IMG/VR virus record: IMGVR_UViG_3300008110_006129
Span: 1 to 20,178 of that record
Reading direction: 5' to 3' (one strand)
Source of the DNA: a virus
DNA length: 20,178 nt
In this document: one piece after another, positions 12,550 to 19,534 of the stretch
How positions within the stretch are numbered: position 1 is the first letter of the stretch
How the letters are laid out: every line of letters begins with the position of its first letter
Notes under the pieces: generated by a model
What the model saw: only the letters and a program-made list of their open reading frames with translations
What the model was told of the DNA's origin: nothing
Database searches by the model: none
Position numbers and translations under genes: made by a program

Positions 12550-14616
12550 ATGACAAACATTGCCAAAAAGTCTATCCTCGCTCGTCTTCTTGCACGTGAA
12601 AATATCACGGTCGAACAGACTAACCATCACACCGCATTCTTTGACGTAGAGCGTCGTATCCTTGGTCTTCCTTATTGGAAGGACGTTGGGAACGACCTCT
12701 ACGATTTGCTCGTTGGTCACGAGATTGGTCACGCTCTGCATACTCCTGCCGCTGGTTGGCACGAGTCGACTAGCGAAATTCCTGGATGCCCTCGCTCGTA
12801 TATTAACATCGTCGAAGATATCCGCATCGAAAAGCTAGTGCTTCGTGAGTTCCCTGGTCTTTATGGGTCCTTCATGCGCGGTTACCAAGATCTTCTTGAT
12901 CGTGACTTCTTTGGCATCAAAAACGAAAACGTTAACAAACTCTCGTTTATGAACCGGCTCAACATCTTCTCGAAAAGCCGTGGGTTGGTGAAAGTCAAGT
13001 TCTCCAAGAAAGAACAACCATACGTTGATCGCGCTATGGCCGTTGAGACTTGGGATGATGTTATTGCTTCTTGCCGTGAACTCTATGCTTTCATGAAAGA
13101 TGAACTCGACGCTGCTATCAAAGCTCAACAAGAGCTGGAAGAAGCTATGAAGAAGGCTGGTATTAAGCCTCCCATGGGTATTCCTTCGAAGATCATCGTT
13201 AGCAGAGGTAATGGAAATTCTGGCGAAAAGTCTGAGCCAATGTCGGAAGAGCTGAAGGAAGCTATCCTTAACGGCGATGTTGAGATCGAAGTTGACACCG
13301 AAAGCTTCAAAGAAGAACAAGAAGAAAAGAATGAAGAAGACATTGATATTCCCGTCACCGTTGATGCCAATGCTGGAGGATCGACTCTCTACGCCAAAGG
13401 CCCGAGCAAAGCTTTGGCCAATGCGATCACTTCTCAGTACGAAGCTGTGAAGAAGGGCCGCTATAAGAAAGTCGACTCGGTTGACTTTCCTACCAAGCAG
13501 TACATTCGCTTTATTTCTGACATCAAAGACTCTGTCGCTGTGATGGTGAAAGAGTTCGAGATGCGCAAGACTGCTCGTCGCTTCGCTCGGGCTCGGACCT
13601 CGACGAAAGGTTCGCTTGACGTCAACGTTCTTCACAAGTACAAGTACGAGGACAACCTCTTCAAGCAGGTGACTCACCTTGACGACGACCAGTCGCATGG
13701 CATGGTGATGTTGATTGACTATTCTGGTTCGATGTCGTCTATCCTGCCAAAGGTGATCAAACAAGTTCTCATTCTTTCTGCCTTCTGCAAGCGGGTTAAT
13801 ATCCCCTTCGAAGTCTATGGCTTCACGAACCCCTACGGCGTAGGATCTGACTATCAGCGTAGAGTTCTTGCAGCTAAAGCCGACTTGACTGCAGTTAGCA
13901 TGAGCAACACACATGTGTTCAAGCTTATCGACTCGTCGATGGCAAAGAAAGTTTACGAAGAAGCTTTCAAGTCTCTCTTTGCTCAGACCTGCTCCAACCG
14001 TCGTCAATGGATGGGCGCTCTTGAAACAATGGGTGGCACTCCCCTCGACACTGCCATCCTTGCTATGTATCACCACATTGCTGACTTCAGGGTCAAGCAC
14101 AATGTCCAAAAGATGAACTTCATCACGCTGACGGATGGCCAAGGTGATGGTATCGGCATCGAGAATGGTATCGACCTTGGCAGCAAGAACACTCGTAGCG
14201 GGTTCAAGAATAGAGTGATCGATATCATGGGTCAGAAGATCACCGTCGACTATGGCTATGGCGCTGCTACTCCTAGTATTCTGAATGGTCTTCGTAACAT
14301 GGGTGTGCGCACTATGAACTACCATTTGGTTTCCACTAGTGATATCAAATATCAGCTTGGTGCGCGTGATCCTCAAAAATTGGCTGACGCTCTTGCTCAA
14401 GTCAACAAAGATGGATGTCTAGTTCTTGATCGTAGCAACGGTTACGACCGTCAGATCTTCACTGTTCTTGGTGGCACTTCTCTCTCAAAGGATGAAGACA
14501 GTGAAGATGATCTGAGCGAAGACACTCGCGAGATTGCTTCGGCCTTTACTAACAAGGCTTTCAAGCGCAAGCAGGGTCGACTGATCGCTGCAAAATTTGC
14601 AGAAATTGTGAGTTAA
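12550..14616 (+). CDS. CobT-like protein: zinc metalloprotease motif plus VWA domain
   Basis: A 688-residue protein with two clear parts. Near the N-terminus is the zinc protease motif H57-E58-I-G-H61 (LVGHEIGHALHTP), followed by NIVEDIRIEK (E89-D90), a likely third ligand. The middle (about 190-275) is charged and glutamate-rich (KEEQEEKNEEDID), with a lysine-rich segment after it. The C-terminal VWA domain has the MIDAS residues D390-Y-S392-G-S394 (LIDYSGSMSS), T497 (GGTPLDT) and D529 (LTDGQGD). Related CobT-like proteins work with CobS-like AAA+ ATPases, whose gene follows directly. The cobalt-chelatase role is unlikely in a phage; metal-dependent processing or remodelling is more plausible. 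Codons are GC-ending, unlike the tail genes. Confidence 0.85.
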   Translation: MTNIAKKSILARLLARENITVEQTNHHTAFFDVERRILGLPYWKDVGNDLYDLLVGHEIGHALHTPAAGWHESTSEIPGCPRSYINIVEDIRIEKLVLREFPGLYGSFMRGYQDLLDRDFFGIKNENVNKLSFMNRLNIFSKSRGLVKVKFSKKEQPYVDRAMAVETWDDVIASCRELYAFMKDELDAAIKAQQELEEAMKKAGIKPPMGIPSKIIVSRGNGNSGEKSEPMSEELKEAILNGDVEIEVDTESFKEEQEEKNEEDIDIPVTVDANAGGSTLYAKGPSKALANAITSQYEAVKKGRYKKVDSVDFPTKQYIRFISDIKDSVAVMVKEFEMRKTARRFARARTSTKGSLDVNVLHKYKYEDNLFKQVTHLDDDQSHGMVMLIDYSGSMSSILPKVIKQVLILSAFCKRVNIPFEVYGFTNPYGVGSDYQRRVLAAKADLTAVSMSNTHVFKLIDSSMAKKVYEEAFKSLFAQTCSNRRQWMGALETMGGTPLDTAILAMYHHIADFRVKHNVQKMNFITLTDGQGDGIGIENGIDLGSKNTRSGFKNRVIDIMGQKITVDYGYGAATPSILNGLRNMGVRTMNYHLVSTSDIKYQLGARDPQKLADALAQVNKDGCLVLDRSNGYDRQIFTVLGGTSLSKDEDSEDDLSEDTREIASAFTNKAFKRKQGRLIAAKFAEIVS

Positions 14617-14620
14617 GGGG

Positions 14621-14649
14621 TTGACATTTCCTCTTAACTGACTTATATA
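14621..14649 (+). promoter_or_regulatory. Sigma70-type promoter before the CobS-like gene
   Basis: TTGACA at 14621-14626 and TATATA at 14644-14649, 17-base spacer, in the 66-base gap between the CobT-like and CobS-like genes. It can supply extra ATPase independent of the upstream gene. Confidence 0.8.
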
Positions 14650-14682
14650 GAATAAGTGAATGGCTAAATTATGGAGACTCTC

Positions 14683-15810
14683 ATGTCTGACGCTCAAAAC
14701 TTCATCAATACTGTTCGTGCTGCTAATGGTGGTAAAGACACCTACACTCGTAAAGAACTTCTCGAGTTCGGCAAAGAAAACGGCTTCCGCCCAAAAACGG
14801 TCTGGGAAGCTATCAAGTCCGTTCCGGCCAAACGTGGCGTTGTCGACTTCTCGGCAAAAATTATTCCGTTGAACACCGCTGCCACGGTCCAGCCGACGAT
14901 CGTCCTCTCCGAAGAAGGCACCTACATTCCGAAGCGTGTCAAAACCTACGTGAAGTGGGGCCACTTCAAAGACATCTCGACCATCATCGATTCGAAGATG
15001 TTCTATCCTGTCTATCTCACTGGCCTGTCGGGTAACGGTAAGACCATGATGGTTGAACAGGCTTGTGCCGAAGCTAACCGGGAATACATCCGTGTCCAGA
15101 TCACCCCTGAGACTGACGAAGACGACCTGATTGGTGGCTTCCGTCTGGTGAATGGCGAGACTGTCTTCTCGAAGGGTCCGGTCATCAAAGCGATGGAAGC
15201 CGGCGCTATCCTGCTGGTCGACGAGATCGACCGTGGTTCGAACAAGCTGATGGCTCTTCAAGGTGTTCTCGAAGGTAAGCCGGTCTTGATCAAGAAGACC
15301 GGCGAGCTTGTGACTCCTGCTGCTGGCTTCAACATCATCGCGACTTCGAACACGAAGGGTAAAGGTTCCGAGGATGGCCGCTTCATTGCTGCCACTATCA
15401 TCGACGAAGCTTTCCTTGAGCGCTTCACTATCACGATGGAACAACCCTACCCTACTGCTCCTGTTGAGAAGAAGATCGTCGTCAAGCACATGGAACTCTT
15501 TGGCCAAGTCGACGATGACTTCGCTGAGAACCTGACGAAGTGGTCGTCTGCTATTCGCAAGACCTTTGATGATGGTGGTATTGACGAGATCATCTCGACT
15601 CGTCGACTGTGCCATATTGCTCAGACCTTCGCGATCTTCAAAGATCGTAAGAAGTCGATCGACCTCTGTGTCTCTCGCTTCGATGAAGATACTCGAGCTG
15701 CCTTCGTCGATCTCTACACGAAGATCGATGCAGCTGCTACGGCTCCGAGCGGTAAGACTCATATCACTACTAATCCTGACGACGACTACCGCAACGAATC
15801 ACCCTTCTGA
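14683..15810 (+). CDS. cobS: CobS/MoxR-like AAA+ ATPase
   Basis: A 375-residue AAA+ ATPase. Walker A is GLSGNGKT (114-121, K120), Walker B is ILLVDEID (D180, E181), sensor 1 is the N223 of IIATSN, and an arginine finger is at R247 (EAFLERF). Residues 150-152 (LIGG) fit the helix-2 insert of the MoxR/CobS clade, whose members remodel partners carrying VWA domains. The CobT-like VWA protein is encoded just upstream, so the two probably form one machine. cobS homologues are common in marine T4-like phages; their job is unresolved. I chose ATG 14683 because GGAG at 14673-14676 fits it; ATG 14671 contains that site. The N-terminal 90 residues may bind the partner. Confidence 0.9.
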   Translation: MSDAQNFINTVRAANGGKDTYTRKELLEFGKENGFRPKTVWEAIKSVPAKRGVVDFSAKIIPLNTAATVQPTIVLSEEGTYIPKRVKTYVKWGHFKDISTIIDSKMFYPVYLTGLSGNGKTMMVEQACAEANREYIRVQITPETDEDDLIGGFRLVNGETVFSKGPVIKAMEAGAILLVDEIDRGSNKLMALQGVLEGKPVLIKKTGELVTPAAGFNIIATSNTKGKGSEDGRFIAATIIDEAFLERFTITMEQPYPTAPVEKKIVVKHMELFGQVDDDFAENLTKWSSAIRKTFDDGGIDEIISTRRLCHIAQTFAIFKDRKKSIDLCVSRFDEDTRAAFVDLYTKIDAAATAPSGKTHITTNPDDDYRNESPF

Positions 15811-16952: not shown

Positions 16953-17219
16953 ATGACTCGAGTTGTACAAAGGGTACAGATTACTGGTGATAGTGCAACT
17001 ATCCGAACATCTGTAGGTGCATTCAAAGTTCTTACAGCACATGAACGAGAAGGCATTCCCACCGTTTGGTACGAAACACTCGAGAAGCCTGTAGTGCCAG
17101 TTGACGTGACGTTCACTGTAGTCCCAACAGGAGGTGTTGTTCCAGAACACTCGATCTATGTTGGAACCGCATTTAATGAAGGTAGAGCTTCTCATATTTA
17201 TCAGCACCCAGACGTCTGA
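16953..17219 (+). CDS. DUF7352-like small phage protein
   Basis: An 88-residue, strand-rich protein. The order GAFKVLTAHEREGIPTVWYETLEKP, then VTFTVVPTGGVVP, then IYVGTAFNEGRASHIYQH matches the pattern of short phage proteins annotated DUF7352 (ILSVQ..NG.P.LWA, TGHPI, YIGTF, WHVFE). Function is unknown. Start ATG 16953 follows AAGGAG and the wall-hydrolase stop directly. Confidence 0.65.
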   Translation: MTRVVQRVQITGDSATIRTSVGAFKVLTAHEREGIPTVWYETLEKPVVPVDVTFTVVPTGGVVPEHSIYVGTAFNEGRASHIYQHPDV

Positions 17220-17227
17220 GGCAGCCG

Positions 17228-17317
17228 ATGGAGAAACAAGAAGAACAAAAAGAAGCTCCATCTACGCCTAGACACGAAGAATACCTCGAGAAACAACGCC
17301 GATATGATAAGGGATAG
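17228..17317 (+). CDS. Tiny charged protein, 29 aa, unknown
   Basis: A 29-residue reading frame rich in Glu, Gln and Lys (MEKQEEQKEAPSTPRHEEYL). GAGG at 17218-17221 is 6 bases upstream of ATG 17228, and it fills the gap between two genes without overlap. Composition is biased and no family is recognised, so it is accepted only on spacing and ribosome site. Confidence 0.45.
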   Translation: MEKQEEQKEAPSTPRHEEYLEKQRRYDKG

Positions 17318-17319
17318 CT

Positions 17320-17418
17320 ATGAAGTATTTAATGATGATTTTCGCATACAGCACGTACAGCGGCGACAGAAGTACACATCGCATGTACCATACAAAGTAT
17401 GAAGACCTATGCCAGTAA
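17320..17418 (+). CDS. Tiny protein, 32 aa, before the alternative oxidase
   Basis: A 32-residue reading frame, MKYLMMIFAYSTYSGDRST and on to YEDLCQ. It starts at ATG 17320 after AAGGGAT, 2 bases after the previous stop, and overlaps the oxidase start by 10 bases, as other real genes here do. It might only couple translation of the oxidase. No family is recognised. Confidence 0.45.
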   Translation: MKYLMMIFAYSTYSGDRSTHRMYHTKYEDLCQ

Positions 17419-18011
17419 AACCAAGTAATATTTCAGATCAGGTAGCTTATGGCTTAACTGCATCATTTCGTTGGTTTGCAGATACGTTTTTTGCAAAGCG
17501 TTACGGTCACAGAGCAGTAGTACTTGAGACTGTCGCAGGCGTGCCTGGAATGGTTGCCGGCATGTGGCAGCATCTTCGTAGTCTGCGGAAGATGGAACCG
17601 GATAAGCGGGGCTGGATTAAAACTCTGTTAGAAGAAGCAGAGAACGAACGAATGCATCTCATGATCTTTATTGAGATTGCTAAACCTAGCTTATTTGAAA
17701 GAACGCTTGTTGCCTTCGCACAGTTTGTCTTTTGGCATTTCTACTTTGTTCTCTACGTGTTCTTTCCAAAGACTGCTCATCGCATGATCGGGTATTTTGA
17801 AGATCAAGCCGTCGTGAGTTATACACAGTATCTTGAAGAGATTGATTCTGGCAGAATTGCAAACATCCCAGCACCAAAAATCGCAATTGACTATTATGAT
17901 TTGCCTGAAGAGTCGACTCTTCGTGATGTAGTCATTCGTGTAAGAGAAGATGAACAGGGTCATGCTAATGTAAACCATGGCATGGCAAACGTTTTAGAAA
18001 AGCATAACTAA
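17409..18011 (+). CDS. Alternative oxidase (diiron ubiquinol oxidase)
   Basis: A 200-residue alternative oxidase, which passes electrons from ubiquinol straight to oxygen without pumping protons. The motifs are in order: L39-E40-T (RYGHRAVVLETVAGVPGMVA), N79-E80-R-M-H83 (EAENERMHL), the third motif YFEDQAVVSYTQYLEEID where the usual LEEEA is FEDQA (E131 kept), and R179-E-D-E182-x2-H185 (usual RADEAHHRDVNH; here REDEQGHANVNH). APKIAIDYYDLPEESTLRDVV is close to the matching part of plant and bacterial AOX, so this is AOX rather than the cyanophage plastoquinol oxidase. The hydrophobic LVAFAQFVFWHFYFVLYVFF is the interfacial membrane helix. It lacks the plant N-terminal regulatory cysteine region. 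It is followed by the tmRNA promoter. Confidence 0.9.
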   Translation: MPVKPSNISDQVAYGLTASFRWFADTFFAKRYGHRAVVLETVAGVPGMVAGMWQHLRSLRKMEPDKRGWIKTLLEEAENERMHLMIFIEIAKPSLFERTLVAFAQFVFWHFYFVLYVFFPKTAHRMIGYFEDQAVVSYTQYLEEIDSGRIANIPAPKIAIDYYDLPEESTLRDVVIRVREDEQGHANVNHGMANVLEKHN

Positions 18012-18019
18012 CTTTTTTG

Positions 18020-18048
18020 TTGACATTAACGAGTAAATAGTATATAAA
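18020..18048 (+). promoter_or_regulatory. Promoter of the tmRNA
   Basis: TTGACA at 18020-18025 and TATAAA at 18043-18048, 17-base spacer. TATAAATA (18043-18050) is also a late-promoter core, so the RNA could be made both early and late. The 16 bases ACTTTTTTGTTGACAT here also occur at the 12500 promoter. Confidence 0.8.
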
Positions 18049-18059
18049 TAGACTTGTAG

Positions 18060-18395
18060 TGATGATATTCACTGAACACGTTCTGGACCTGGGGGCGGTA
18101 CCCAGCGGGTCCACCATAGATACACTCGGTTAGGTTCCAAGTTTCACTTGGCTATACCAATAGAGGGTGCTGGCTATCCTGTAAAATCCTGCCAGCACAT
18201 TAGGATTATCCGAGTGTATCTTTGATGGGCTCGAAATAGGATCGACAGGCGGACTAGGCAGGATGGAGCTACTCGGCGCAAGCTCGGTTAACGCAAGAAA
18301 ATTACAACTGCAAACGAAAACTTTGCTCCTAAGGCTTACGCGCTAGCCGCATAATCCTGTGGGTATGGGCACCACCTAGAAACAGAACGGGCTCG
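18060..18395 (+). ncRNA. ssrA: Circularly permuted two-piece tmRNA
   Basis: The acceptor piece comes first: TTCTGGAC, a T-stem CTGGG/CCCAG (18089-18093/18101-18105) with 7-base loop GGCGGTA, the acceptor strand CGGGTCC (18106-18112), A, and an encoded CCA (18114-18116). After a 110-base spacer the coding piece begins GGGCTCG (18227-18233), which pairs at all 7 positions with CGGGTCC (two G-U pairs). GGATCGACAGG follows, the conserved tmRNA start element. The tag frame begins at GCA 18310 and ends at TAA 18354, encoding ANENFAPKAYALAA, with an LAA-type degron. CAGAACG (18383-18389) pairs with CGTTCTG (18079-18085), and CTAGG (18254) with CCTAG (18375), tying the pieces together. Mature ends are estimates. 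tmRNA with SmpB rescues stalled ribosomes and tags proteins for ClpXP. Confidence 0.93.
18117..18226 (+). other. Structured spacer between the two tmRNA pieces
   Basis: The spacer is closed by an 11-base perfect inverted repeat, GATACACTCGG (18119-18129) and CCGAGTGTATC (18210-18220). Inside are a CCAAGT/ACTTGG hairpin (18137-18151) and an 8-bp stem GTGCTGGC/GCCAGCAC (18167-18174/18191-18198). Its loop holds AATCCT (18185-18190), complementary to AGGATT (18202-18207), so a pseudoknot is possible. It should be cut out to leave the CCA end and the GGGCTCG start. Confidence 0.8.
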
Positions 18396-18432
18396 CTTAC
18401 ACACAACACACATTTACACACGAGGCATTTAC

Positions 18433-19287
18433 ATGGCAAATTCGCGTCGCATTACTGCGCAAGCATCCGTTATCCCAACATACATCGGTGGATACGTTCA
18501 ACCTACTTCTGTACTTCCTGGAACTGTTACGATGGGATTGACTCAGCCAATCGCTCAACCAGCAAATCTCGGCCAAGCTTTCAAACCGAAACGTGCCGGC
18601 AAGAATCCGAATCTCTCGCACATCATCTTCGTCCTTGACGAATCCTCTTCGATGTCGTCCTGCTGGGAACAAACCATCTCTGGCTACAACGAATATCTGA
18701 AGGCTCAGAAAGAAGACGCTGAAAAGACCGGCATCAAGACTCTGGTCTCTCTCTACAAGTTCAACGGCCACGACGTTCGGGCGATCTTTGATCGTCAAGA
18801 CGTAGGTGAGGTTCAACCCCTCGACAAATCCAGCTATCGCCCAAGCGGTGGCACCAACCTTCTTGACGCTATGGGTGGCGTCATGATGAAGATCACCACT
18901 CTTCTCGCTGAAAAGAAGAAAGCAGATCGTGAATCGGTGATCATTACGATTCTGACTGACGGCGAAGAGAATCAGTCTCGCACTTTCCGTAACGAAGACA
19001 TCAAAGTGATGGTCGAAAAGGCAGAAGGTAAGAACTGGGGCTTCATGTTCCTTGGTGCAAACATCGATGCATTCCATGCCGGTGCAGCTATGGGTTTCAA
19101 CAATAACAATACAATGCAGTTTTCGACTGCTAATGCTGCTGAGACTTTCCGTTCAGCCTCTGCAATGACTTCTCGTATGAAGGGTGACTATGCTTCTGGT
19201 ATGGCCACTATGGATTCTTACACTGTATCGGCATTCAACGACGCTGAGCGTAAAGCCGCTGTAGGTGACAAAGATGCAGGGAAATAA
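18433..19287 (+). CDS. VWA-domain protein downstream of the tmRNA
   Basis: A 284-residue protein whose N-terminal 60 residues are a low-complexity Thr/Pro/Gln-rich tail (VQPTSVLPGTVTMGLTQPI), followed by a VWA domain: D69-E-S71-S-S73 (FVLDESSSMSS), T141 (SGGTNLL) and D176 (LTDGEEN) complete the MIDAS site. FMFLGANIDAFHAGAAMG is like the last core strand of phage VWA proteins. GAGG lies about 10 bases before ATG 18433. No promoter or terminator separates it from the tmRNA, so it may share that transcript. The partner could be the CobS-like ATPase encoded 2.6 kb upstream; this is inference. Codons are GC-ending. Confidence 0.85.
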   Translation: MANSRRITAQASVIPTYIGGYVQPTSVLPGTVTMGLTQPIAQPANLGQAFKPKRAGKNPNLSHIIFVLDESSSMSSCWEQTISGYNEYLKAQKEDAEKTGIKTLVSLYKFNGHDVRAIFDRQDVGEVQPLDKSSYRPSGGTNLLDAMGGVMMKITTLLAEKKKADRESVIITILTDGEENQSRTFRNEDIKVMVEKAEGKNWGFMFLGANIDAFHAGAAMGFNNNNTMQFSTANAAETFRSASAMTSRMKGDYASGMATMDSYTVSAFNDAERKAAVGDKDAGK

Positions 19288-19534
19288 GAACCCGTACGAA
19301 GTTCGTCTTGATATCATGAAGATGGCACAAGAAATGCTTGACCGCGAGACACAAATGAAACAGGAAGCATTTTTTGCGAAGCTTGATACACTTAGAACCT
19401 CGAATAGCAACGTCGATGTAATAAATAAATTCATCGACGAAAACCAACCGAAGATGTACAACGAGAGCGAACTGGTGAACCGCTCTACTGCATTGTACGC
19501 CTTTGTTAATAACTCCACCACAAACAAATCCTAA
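19274..19534 (+). CDS. Conserved small phage protein, 86 aa
   Basis: An 86-residue helical protein. The beginning NKNPYEVRLDIMKMAQEMLDRE resembles a short conserved protein of T4-like cyanophages (NPYEIRLE..KMAKEM). The middle is a charged helix (TQMKQEAFFAKLDTLR), the end is polar. I prefer ATG 19274, behind AGGTG, over GTG 19265. It overlaps the VWA gene by 14 bases. Function is unknown. Confidence 0.7.
   Translation: MQGNKNPYEVRLDIMKMAQEMLDRETQMKQEAFFAKLDTLRTSNSNVDVINKFIDENQPKMYNESELVNRSTALYAFVNNSTTNKS

Follow-up and report, generated by a model that had tools for sequence, protein, structure and literature searches.

Does this locus encode a working tmRNA of the alphaproteobacterial two-piece type for a phage, and what is the segment that separates the two pieces of its gene? 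The DNA analyzed, referred to here as the window, is an entire IMG/VR virus record of 20,178 bases. An earlier note, made from the letters alone, had placed a phage-encoded, permuted tmRNA at this site, starting at 18060, and had named a covariance-model search as the check. When the window was searched with the Rfam covariance models, RF01849 (alpha_tmRNA) matched 18016-18397 on the + strand with 105.4 bits (E 3e-28), well above its cut-off of 50, and RF04321 (tmRNA_permuted) matched 18055-18354 on the + strand with 101.3 bits (E 4.4e-19, cut-off 47). Both matches covered the full model at about twice the gathering threshold, and they bear out the proposed phage permuted tmRNA. The start at 18060 lay in the right gene, some 5 nt past the beginning of the acceptor piece, as the RF04321 match begins at 18055. 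The gene order is permuted, with the acceptor piece followed by a 110-nt intervening segment (IVS) and then the coding piece; the RF04321 model and the term IVS originate in PMC11915505. The features of the locus are as follows.

17409-18011, + strand: alternative oxidase gene (AOX, PF01786), upstream neighbor, E 5.5e-79
18020-18025, + strand: -35-like hexamer TTGACA, from the sequence
18043-18050, + strand: -10-like box TATAAATA, 17 nt past TTGACA and containing TATAAAT, from the sequence and motif counts
18055-18397, + strand: tmRNA gene, alphaproteobacterial-type permuted (two-piece), RF01849 and RF04321
18055-18116, + strand: acceptor piece, first in gene order; the mature 5' end is approximate, set at the start of the RF04321 match
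18089-18105, + strand: T-arm, from the sequence
18106-18112, + strand: acceptor 3' strand CGGGTCC, from the sequence
18113, + strand: discriminator A73, from the sequence
18114-18116, + strand: encoded CCA, from the sequence
18117-18226, + strand: IVS, 110 nt, non-coding (without ATG), removal expected; from the ORF scan, fold, and Rfam scan
18118-18129, + strand: 5' strand of the predicted clamp helix, AGATACACTCGG, forming 12 bp with 18210-18221; register shared across viral IVSs
18167-18198, + strand: predicted 8-bp hairpin within the IVS, GTGCTGGC/GCCAGCAC, from the fold
18210-18221, + strand: 3' strand of the predicted clamp helix, CCGAGTGTATCT, followed by UUGAU before G1
18227-18397, + strand: coding piece; the 3' end is approximate, taken as the end of the RF01849 match
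18227-18233, + strand: acceptor 5' strand GGGCTCG, with G1 at 18227, from the sequence
Within 18227-18397, + strand: D-arm GAAATAGGATCGAC, from the Rfam match
18310-18354, + strand: tag reading frame ANENFAPKAYALAA followed by TAA, from the sequence
18433-19287, + strand: VWA-domain protein gene, PHROG 7371, downstream neighbor, from profile matches

The layout agrees with the earlier description of an acceptor half with encoded CCA (18114-18116) ahead of the coding half (from 18227), and the proposed acceptor stem of GGGCTCG with CGGGTCC forms all 7 of its pairs, two of them, G3-U70 and U5-G68, being wobbles. G3-U70 is the alanine identity pair. The locus combines a full-model score, the permuted order with CCA, an acceptor stem and T-arm, G3-U70, and a tag with a hydrophobic end in AA. 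ARAGORN called no tmRNA in the window; it called tmRNAs in 11 of 23 related loci and missed 12. Those calls carry an asterisk, which we take to denote the permuted form, and they include locus L138, whose tag peptide is identical to that of the window, so we regard the miss in the window as a limit of sensitivity. IVS length was considered as the cause and rejected, since L138 (IVS of 105 nt) and the phage Melnitz (142 nt) were both found. At the level of the sequence, the promoter-like site, permuted order, alanine-type acceptor stem, intact tag frame, and conservation upstream of the same gene are evident, and we assign a probability of about 85% to the reading that the phage tmRNA encoded here is functional and belongs to the alphaproteobacterial two-piece type.

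To place the locus among its relatives, viral permuted-tmRNA genes were collected by pattern scans, giving sets of at least 111, 186, 188, and 193 genes among the matches listed. These viral sequences are mutually related, and counts drawn from them are non-independent. Of 136 pattern places, 94 had no downstream tmRNA D-arm (probably tRNAs and similar) and were excluded. The gene filter itself required 6 of 7 acceptor and 4 of 5 T-stem pairs. A candidate with a false acceptor (L007) was removed by the score filter, whereas a doubtful one (L068) was kept in the sets of 188 and 193; both were excluded by hand from the set used for IVS ORFs.

Among the matches listed, acceptor pairs 4-7 held in 193, 193, 190, and 193 of the 193 viral genes, with up to 6 pair types, and the T-stem was paired at each position in 193/193. 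The inner acceptor pairs formed in 962/965 cases in register versus 546/965 when slid by one base, again among the viral genes listed. Because pairing was itself a filter, it is the variety of pair types, not the percentage, that counts as evidence for the stems. G3-U70 occurred in 193/193 viral genes among the matches listed, a count for which the search patterns and score filter are partly responsible.

The IVS was the feature of this gene that the earlier note overlooked. With one identical search pattern, the median IVS length was 80 nt in 111 viral genes among the matches listed versus 29.5 nt in 108 bacterial genes (Mann-Whitney p 4e-13), and only 2 of the 108 bacterial IVSs reached 90 nt. 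A closing helix of at least 8 bp near the junction was present in 78/111 viral genes among the matches listed but in only 15/108 bacterial genes. For viral IVSs of at least 60 nt, such a helix was found in 128/137 among the matches listed, whereas 50 rounds of shuffling gave 2.46 on average and never more than 7. The position of this clamp is nearly constant: 134 of 141 viral clamps of at least 8 bp, among the matches listed, begin 0 or 1 nt past CCA and stop 4 or 5 nt before G1 (offsets 0/4 or 1/5). Pairing in register was 1319/1507 versus 467-919 in slid registers for the viral clamps among the matches listed. In register, 9 of 11 positions showed 4-6 standard pair types; the slid registers likewise showed 5-6 at inner positions, and so the rate of pairing, not pair variety, distinguishes the clamp register. 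Thirteen of the 15 bacterial clamps of at least 8 bp lie in the two viral registers, which leads us to read the clamp as a putative old alphaproteobacterial feature that was made longer in phages. In the literature searched, including parts of PMC9004378, PMC11915505, PMC4131195, and PMC3978253, we met no description of a conserved clamp or of protein-coding genes within the IVSs of phage tmRNAs. The phage two-piece tmRNA is a known kind, and the enlarged, clamped IVS is a variant for which we found no description.

The interior of the window's own IVS differs from that of many relatives in that it contains no ATG ORF and does not belong to the class with nested protein genes described below. 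The whole segment folds at -40.4 kcal/mol (z -4.84). Once the clamp was removed, the interior, which is identical in sequence to L044, gave a z of -1.55, which is not significant; mean interior z values were -0.36 for 98 non-coding and -0.99 for 30 coding-like viral interiors. Significant interior structure in the window was accordingly rejected, the z of the whole IVS being mostly due to the clamp. The interior is non-coding and most likely serves as a tolerated, possibly functional spacer.

That the window's IVS is instead a specific functional RNA, a regulator or ligand-binding element, is a possibility that we consider doubtful. It draws support from the close relative L134, which differs from the window at 8 of the 462 bases spanning the tmRNA and part of the VWA gene, with only 1 of the 8 in the 110-nt IVS. 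In 22 of 101 non-coding interiors, homologues included, a hairpin loop was also complementary over 6 nt to another stretch, versus a shuffled mean of 7.4 (SD 2.6, maximum 17), and kissing-type loops were noted by eye in seven relatives (L022, L070, L180, L205, L232, L027, and L260). By eye, the loop of the window's hairpin at 18167-18198 could pair with AGGAT(T) at 18203-18208; the automatic loop match for the window interior, however, was a different one, and the interior z reaches only -1.55. Moreover, an Rfam scan of 18100-18240 at E up to 10 gave no match besides the two tmRNA models. No glutamine riboswitch (glnA-type aptamer) was matched, with E up to 10 in 18100-18240 and up to 1 over the entire window. 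Among the interiors compared, the window's resembled only that of L134 at E up to 0.01, and those of the more distant relatives L136, L138, and L139 showed no similarity at that threshold. An 18-mer of the interior matched 8 viral stretches, 4 of which are copies of this gene. The other four (L569, L570, L571, and L573) have no complete tmRNA around the match and differ at 375-393 of 530 bases; these matches were taken as chance.

Several IVSs at other loci deserve mention in their own right. Sinorhizobium phage Phosso (L003, 3515-3924) has a 410-nt IVS that yielded neither a convincing ORF nor a separate Rfam match, and its tmRNA is absent from the record's listed features at that place. L138, L512, and L194 share a similar non-coding IVS (mean column identity of 89%) despite different acceptor stems, which may be a structured RNA. 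T-arm-like stretches were seen by eye in the IVSs of L477, L245, L199, and L442, and tRNA remnants were considered as an origin of interiors; no tRNA was found inside the IVS at the gathering threshold in the ten loci scanned.

In many relatives the IVS carries a protein gene. Among the matches listed, an ATG ORF occupied 70% or more of the segment in 35 of 73 viral IVSs of at least 95 nt, compared with a shuffled mean of 7.1 (maximum 15) and 9 on the antisense strand. A ribosome-binding site accompanied such an ORF in 23 of the 73 IVSs among the matches listed (shuffled mean 0.48, maximum 3; antisense 1). With a stricter spacing rule, the site was present in 18 of 31 clamped coding IVSs, and in 9 of these 18 at least 3 nt of it lay inside the clamp. 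The ends of the 35 ORFs among the matches listed favored two places: 12 stop directly before G1, and 11 stop at the D-arm TAG, ending 13 nt into the coding piece. Five ORF families with 2 or 3 members each were compared for selection, at the following loci.

Loci of IVS ORFs in the selection test: L239, L224, L178, L211, L229, L241, L083, L189, L159, L089, L257, L171, L251, L259

Over the whole frame, dN/dS was 0.08-0.34 in 12 of 13 pairs; dS was saturated in the thirteenth pair and in three interior comparisons. Judged by these ratios, the five families show purifying selection. The figures cover the families of L239 to L259, and the Melnitz ORF (L487) lies outside them. The IVS protein of L239 has 67% identity to the product of an annotated Melnitz gene that stands on its own directly upstream of the Melnitz tmRNA, and therefore one gene can sit beside or within the tmRNA gene. 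The 142-nt Melnitz IVS holds a different ORF, which has no annotation in its record. A search of PHROGs with ten IVS proteins at E up to 1 gave no convincing family (best 0.032), and no phage isolates with the 44-aa IVS protein were found.

A further explanation for the clamp is that it is an inverted repeat at the DNA level, such as the ends of an inserted element, and not an RNA helix. An insertion with inverted ends would also give complementary ends and unrelated interiors. The register, however, is fixed relative to CCA and G1 in the viral clamps counted above among the matches listed, pairing persists through base changes, and the bacterial clamps lie in the same two registers, so that we regard the inverted-repeat explanation as very improbable and favor the RNA helix.

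The tag frame was compared across the same genes. A first finder, which favored frames ending in AA, recovered tags in 162/188 viral genes among the matches listed, of which 160 end in AA and 138 in LAA, and in 106/108 bacterial genes, every one ending in AA. When the analysis was repeated with the first GCNAAYGA frame and without that preference, a frame was found in 128/188 viral genes among the matches listed (126 ending in AA) and in 105/108 bacterial genes (105 ending in AA). The tag sequence varies between relatives while the AA-ended frame is kept. None of 20 phage records, of which 5 are titled complete genomes and 15 are fragments, gave a match to SmpB (PF01668), whereas 10 of 14 control genomes did; the SmpB used is therefore presumably that of the host.

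These data bear on whether the RNA is a decoy that binds SmpB or AlaRS and blocks host trans-translation, as proposed for the RNA of mycobacteriophage DS6A, which has only a tRNA-like domain (TLD). TLD-only RNA of this sort inhibits tmRNA, according to PMC4131195 and PMC11915505, and the lack of SmpB in the 20 phage records, 15 of them fragments, is compatible with such a role. A decoy would need no tag frame, however, and the intact frame and LAA end in the window, together with the AA-ended frames kept in relatives of differing tag sequence, count against it. The window, in which the tag-coding part is present, is not of the TLD-only type, and we consider a decoy role quite unlikely, in contrast to a tagging tmRNA.

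The place of the gene next to the VWA gene is conserved in the relatives searched. The downstream VWA-domain protein matched 28 IMG/VR loci, and RF04321 was above the cut-off in all 15 of the VWA-bearing IMG/VR records searched (15 of the 28 loci). By the match coordinates, the VWA gene follows the tmRNA in all 15, and the gap between the tmRNA end and the VWA match is at most 0.2 kb in 14 records and roughly 1 kb in L139. Four of five named phages likewise had RF04321 above the cut-off, the sole exception being Phage C48C1, which gave no such match. As a separate observation, relatives of the upstream AOX were found in 116 IMG/VR stretches, and a permuted tmRNA also occurs in 11 of the best 80 of these 116; among phage isolate records, Phage C48C1 was the only one with an AOX relative. 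Positions 12550-15810 of the window hold a CobT-like/CobS-like pair (phrog_459 'peptidase'; AAA_5 + CbbQ_C ATPase), and the CobT-like protein matched 463 isolate records, nearly all cyanophages, with those listed at about 29-35% identity. The CobT-like and CobS-like proteins together with PhoH in the window suggest that the source is a T4-like marine phage.

The earlier note had also credited the gene with a strong promoter of its own, and the sequence supports a promoter here. A near-consensus site is visible by eye, and its motifs are enriched at viral tmRNA genes; a generic promoter scanner applied to 17000-19400, whose rule for the -10 box requires T as the sixth base, listed none. The hexamer TTGACA was present in 11 of 14 upstream regions compared, the window's own included (as L044). 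The -10-like box TATAAATA has 4 copies in the window versus 0.59 expected, and none of 100 shuffles reached 4. TATAAAT, which PMC9004378 names as a T4-like late promoter, was found in 104/186 viral tmRNA genes among the matches listed at a distance of 125-40 nt ahead of the CCA end (shuffled mean 9.2, maximum 18, 200 rounds). A TTGAC[AT] box with a -10 partner was found in 100/186 viral tmRNA genes among the matches listed (shuffled mean 2.5, maximum 7, 200 rounds). In L134 the sequence further upstream diverges and the spacer is 1 nt shorter, yet TTGACATT and TATAAATAGACTTG are kept; because of the shorter spacer, an ungapped comparison of the window with L134 overstates the difference upstream of the promoter.

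Chance capture of a host ssrA that now drifts without function in the phage is hardly credible: phages do acquire ssrA pieces at integration sites (PMC9004378), but the tmRNA sits upstream of the same gene in 15/15 related records searched, its stems are varied yet paired, L134 retains the promoter hexamers despite divergence further upstream, and the best 25 cores are all viral, the window's included, with 11 at 211-455 bits versus 110.7 bits for the top of the 108 bacterial ones.

Two-piece tmRNA is reportedly encoded in alphaproteobacterial chromosomes, as described for Caulobacter by Keiler in 2000. The chromosomal form (RF01849) and the window are alike in gene order, in model match, and in an AND/ANE...AA-type tag; the commonest tag length is 12 aa in bacterial two-piece tmRNA versus 14 and 13 aa in phages. 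The novelty that the earlier note implied for a phage permuted form is not borne out, as PMC9004378 already presents the two-piece tmRNA of OM43 phage Melnitz and counts 53 two-piece structures that ARAGORN suggested among the phage genomes of January 2021, with marine or aquatic phages accounting for 50, and the record of phage DSS3_MAL1 has an annotated ssrA. Melnitz (MZ577097) and the roseophages DSS3_MAL1, DSS3P8, and RpAliso resemble the window in having RF04321 above the cut-off, with tags that end in LAA, IAA, or VAA. The IVS and clamp measure 142 nt and 9 bp in Melnitz, 98 nt and 8 bp in DSS3_MAL1, and 106 nt and 11 bp in DSS3P8, compared with 110 nt and 12 bp in the window; the RpAliso match is only 222 nt, and its IVS must therefore be short. 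Melnitz differs from the window in its unannotated IVS ORF, the window's IVS being non-coding, and in the glutamine riboswitch reported with its tmRNA (PMC9004378), for which the window has no match. In DSS3_MAL1 (L002, 3401-3864) and DSS3P8 (L007, 2211-2644), we observed a GOLLD RNA (RF02032) directly upstream of the permuted tmRNA. The tmRNAs of mycobacteriophages and Bacillus phage G are, like that of the window, phage-encoded ssrA, whereas the DS6A TLD-only RNA lacks the coding part and the window is permuted with a full tag frame (PMC4131195). PMC11915505 lists 79 unique phage tmRNA sequences and describes a tRNA-Ala gene and a repetitive element as IVS contents. The permuted tmRNA with the tRNA-Ala gene, from one nominally archaeal genome and called unique there, likewise has extra cargo inside its IVS; unlike that case, the phage inserts are protein-coding or non-coding and recurrent.

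Taken as a functional phage tmRNA, the gene would be expressed as a precursor transcribed from the site at 18020-18050. In this precursor, the two acceptor strands would pair, stacked on the 12-bp clamp helix, which would close the IVS and tether the halves to each other. RNase P would cut before G1 (18227), host nucleases would trim to CCA (18116), and the IVS would be released. The two base-paired pieces would then be charged with alanine, bound by host SmpB, and used in infection to free stalled ribosomes, adding ANENFAPKAYALAA as an LAA-ended tag for host proteases. We infer processing, charging, and tagging from the known pathway. In phages, the clamp would shield the tmRNA from changes in the IVS interior, which could then lengthen and take up other RNA or small genes of the kind found in many relatives.

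A more speculative extension, which we put forward tentatively and regard as unlikely, is that the phage IVS is a cargo slot, with the clamp insulating the tmRNA, and that its contents, whether a nested protein gene or, in the window's case, non-coding RNA, give the transcript a second product. If the nested ORF stops at the D-arm TAG, the RNase P cut would remove the stop codon, and the nested message would therefore become a non-stop mRNA, a substrate of that same tmRNA. Cargo translation and tmRNA maturation would in this way regulate each other, much like ArfA, whose mRNA lacks a stop codon and is repressed by trans-translation (PMC10107115).

Phage ribosome-rescue RNAs are known yet unexplained, and the organization of clamp and cargo offers a handle on them. 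The clamp model predicts the cut sites of the precursor and accounts for the tolerance of inserts. Small phage genes inside an RNA gene can escape annotation, as exemplified by the Melnitz ORF. If cargo translation is indeed coupled to tmRNA maturation, these loci would represent a new kind of self-regulated gene pair.
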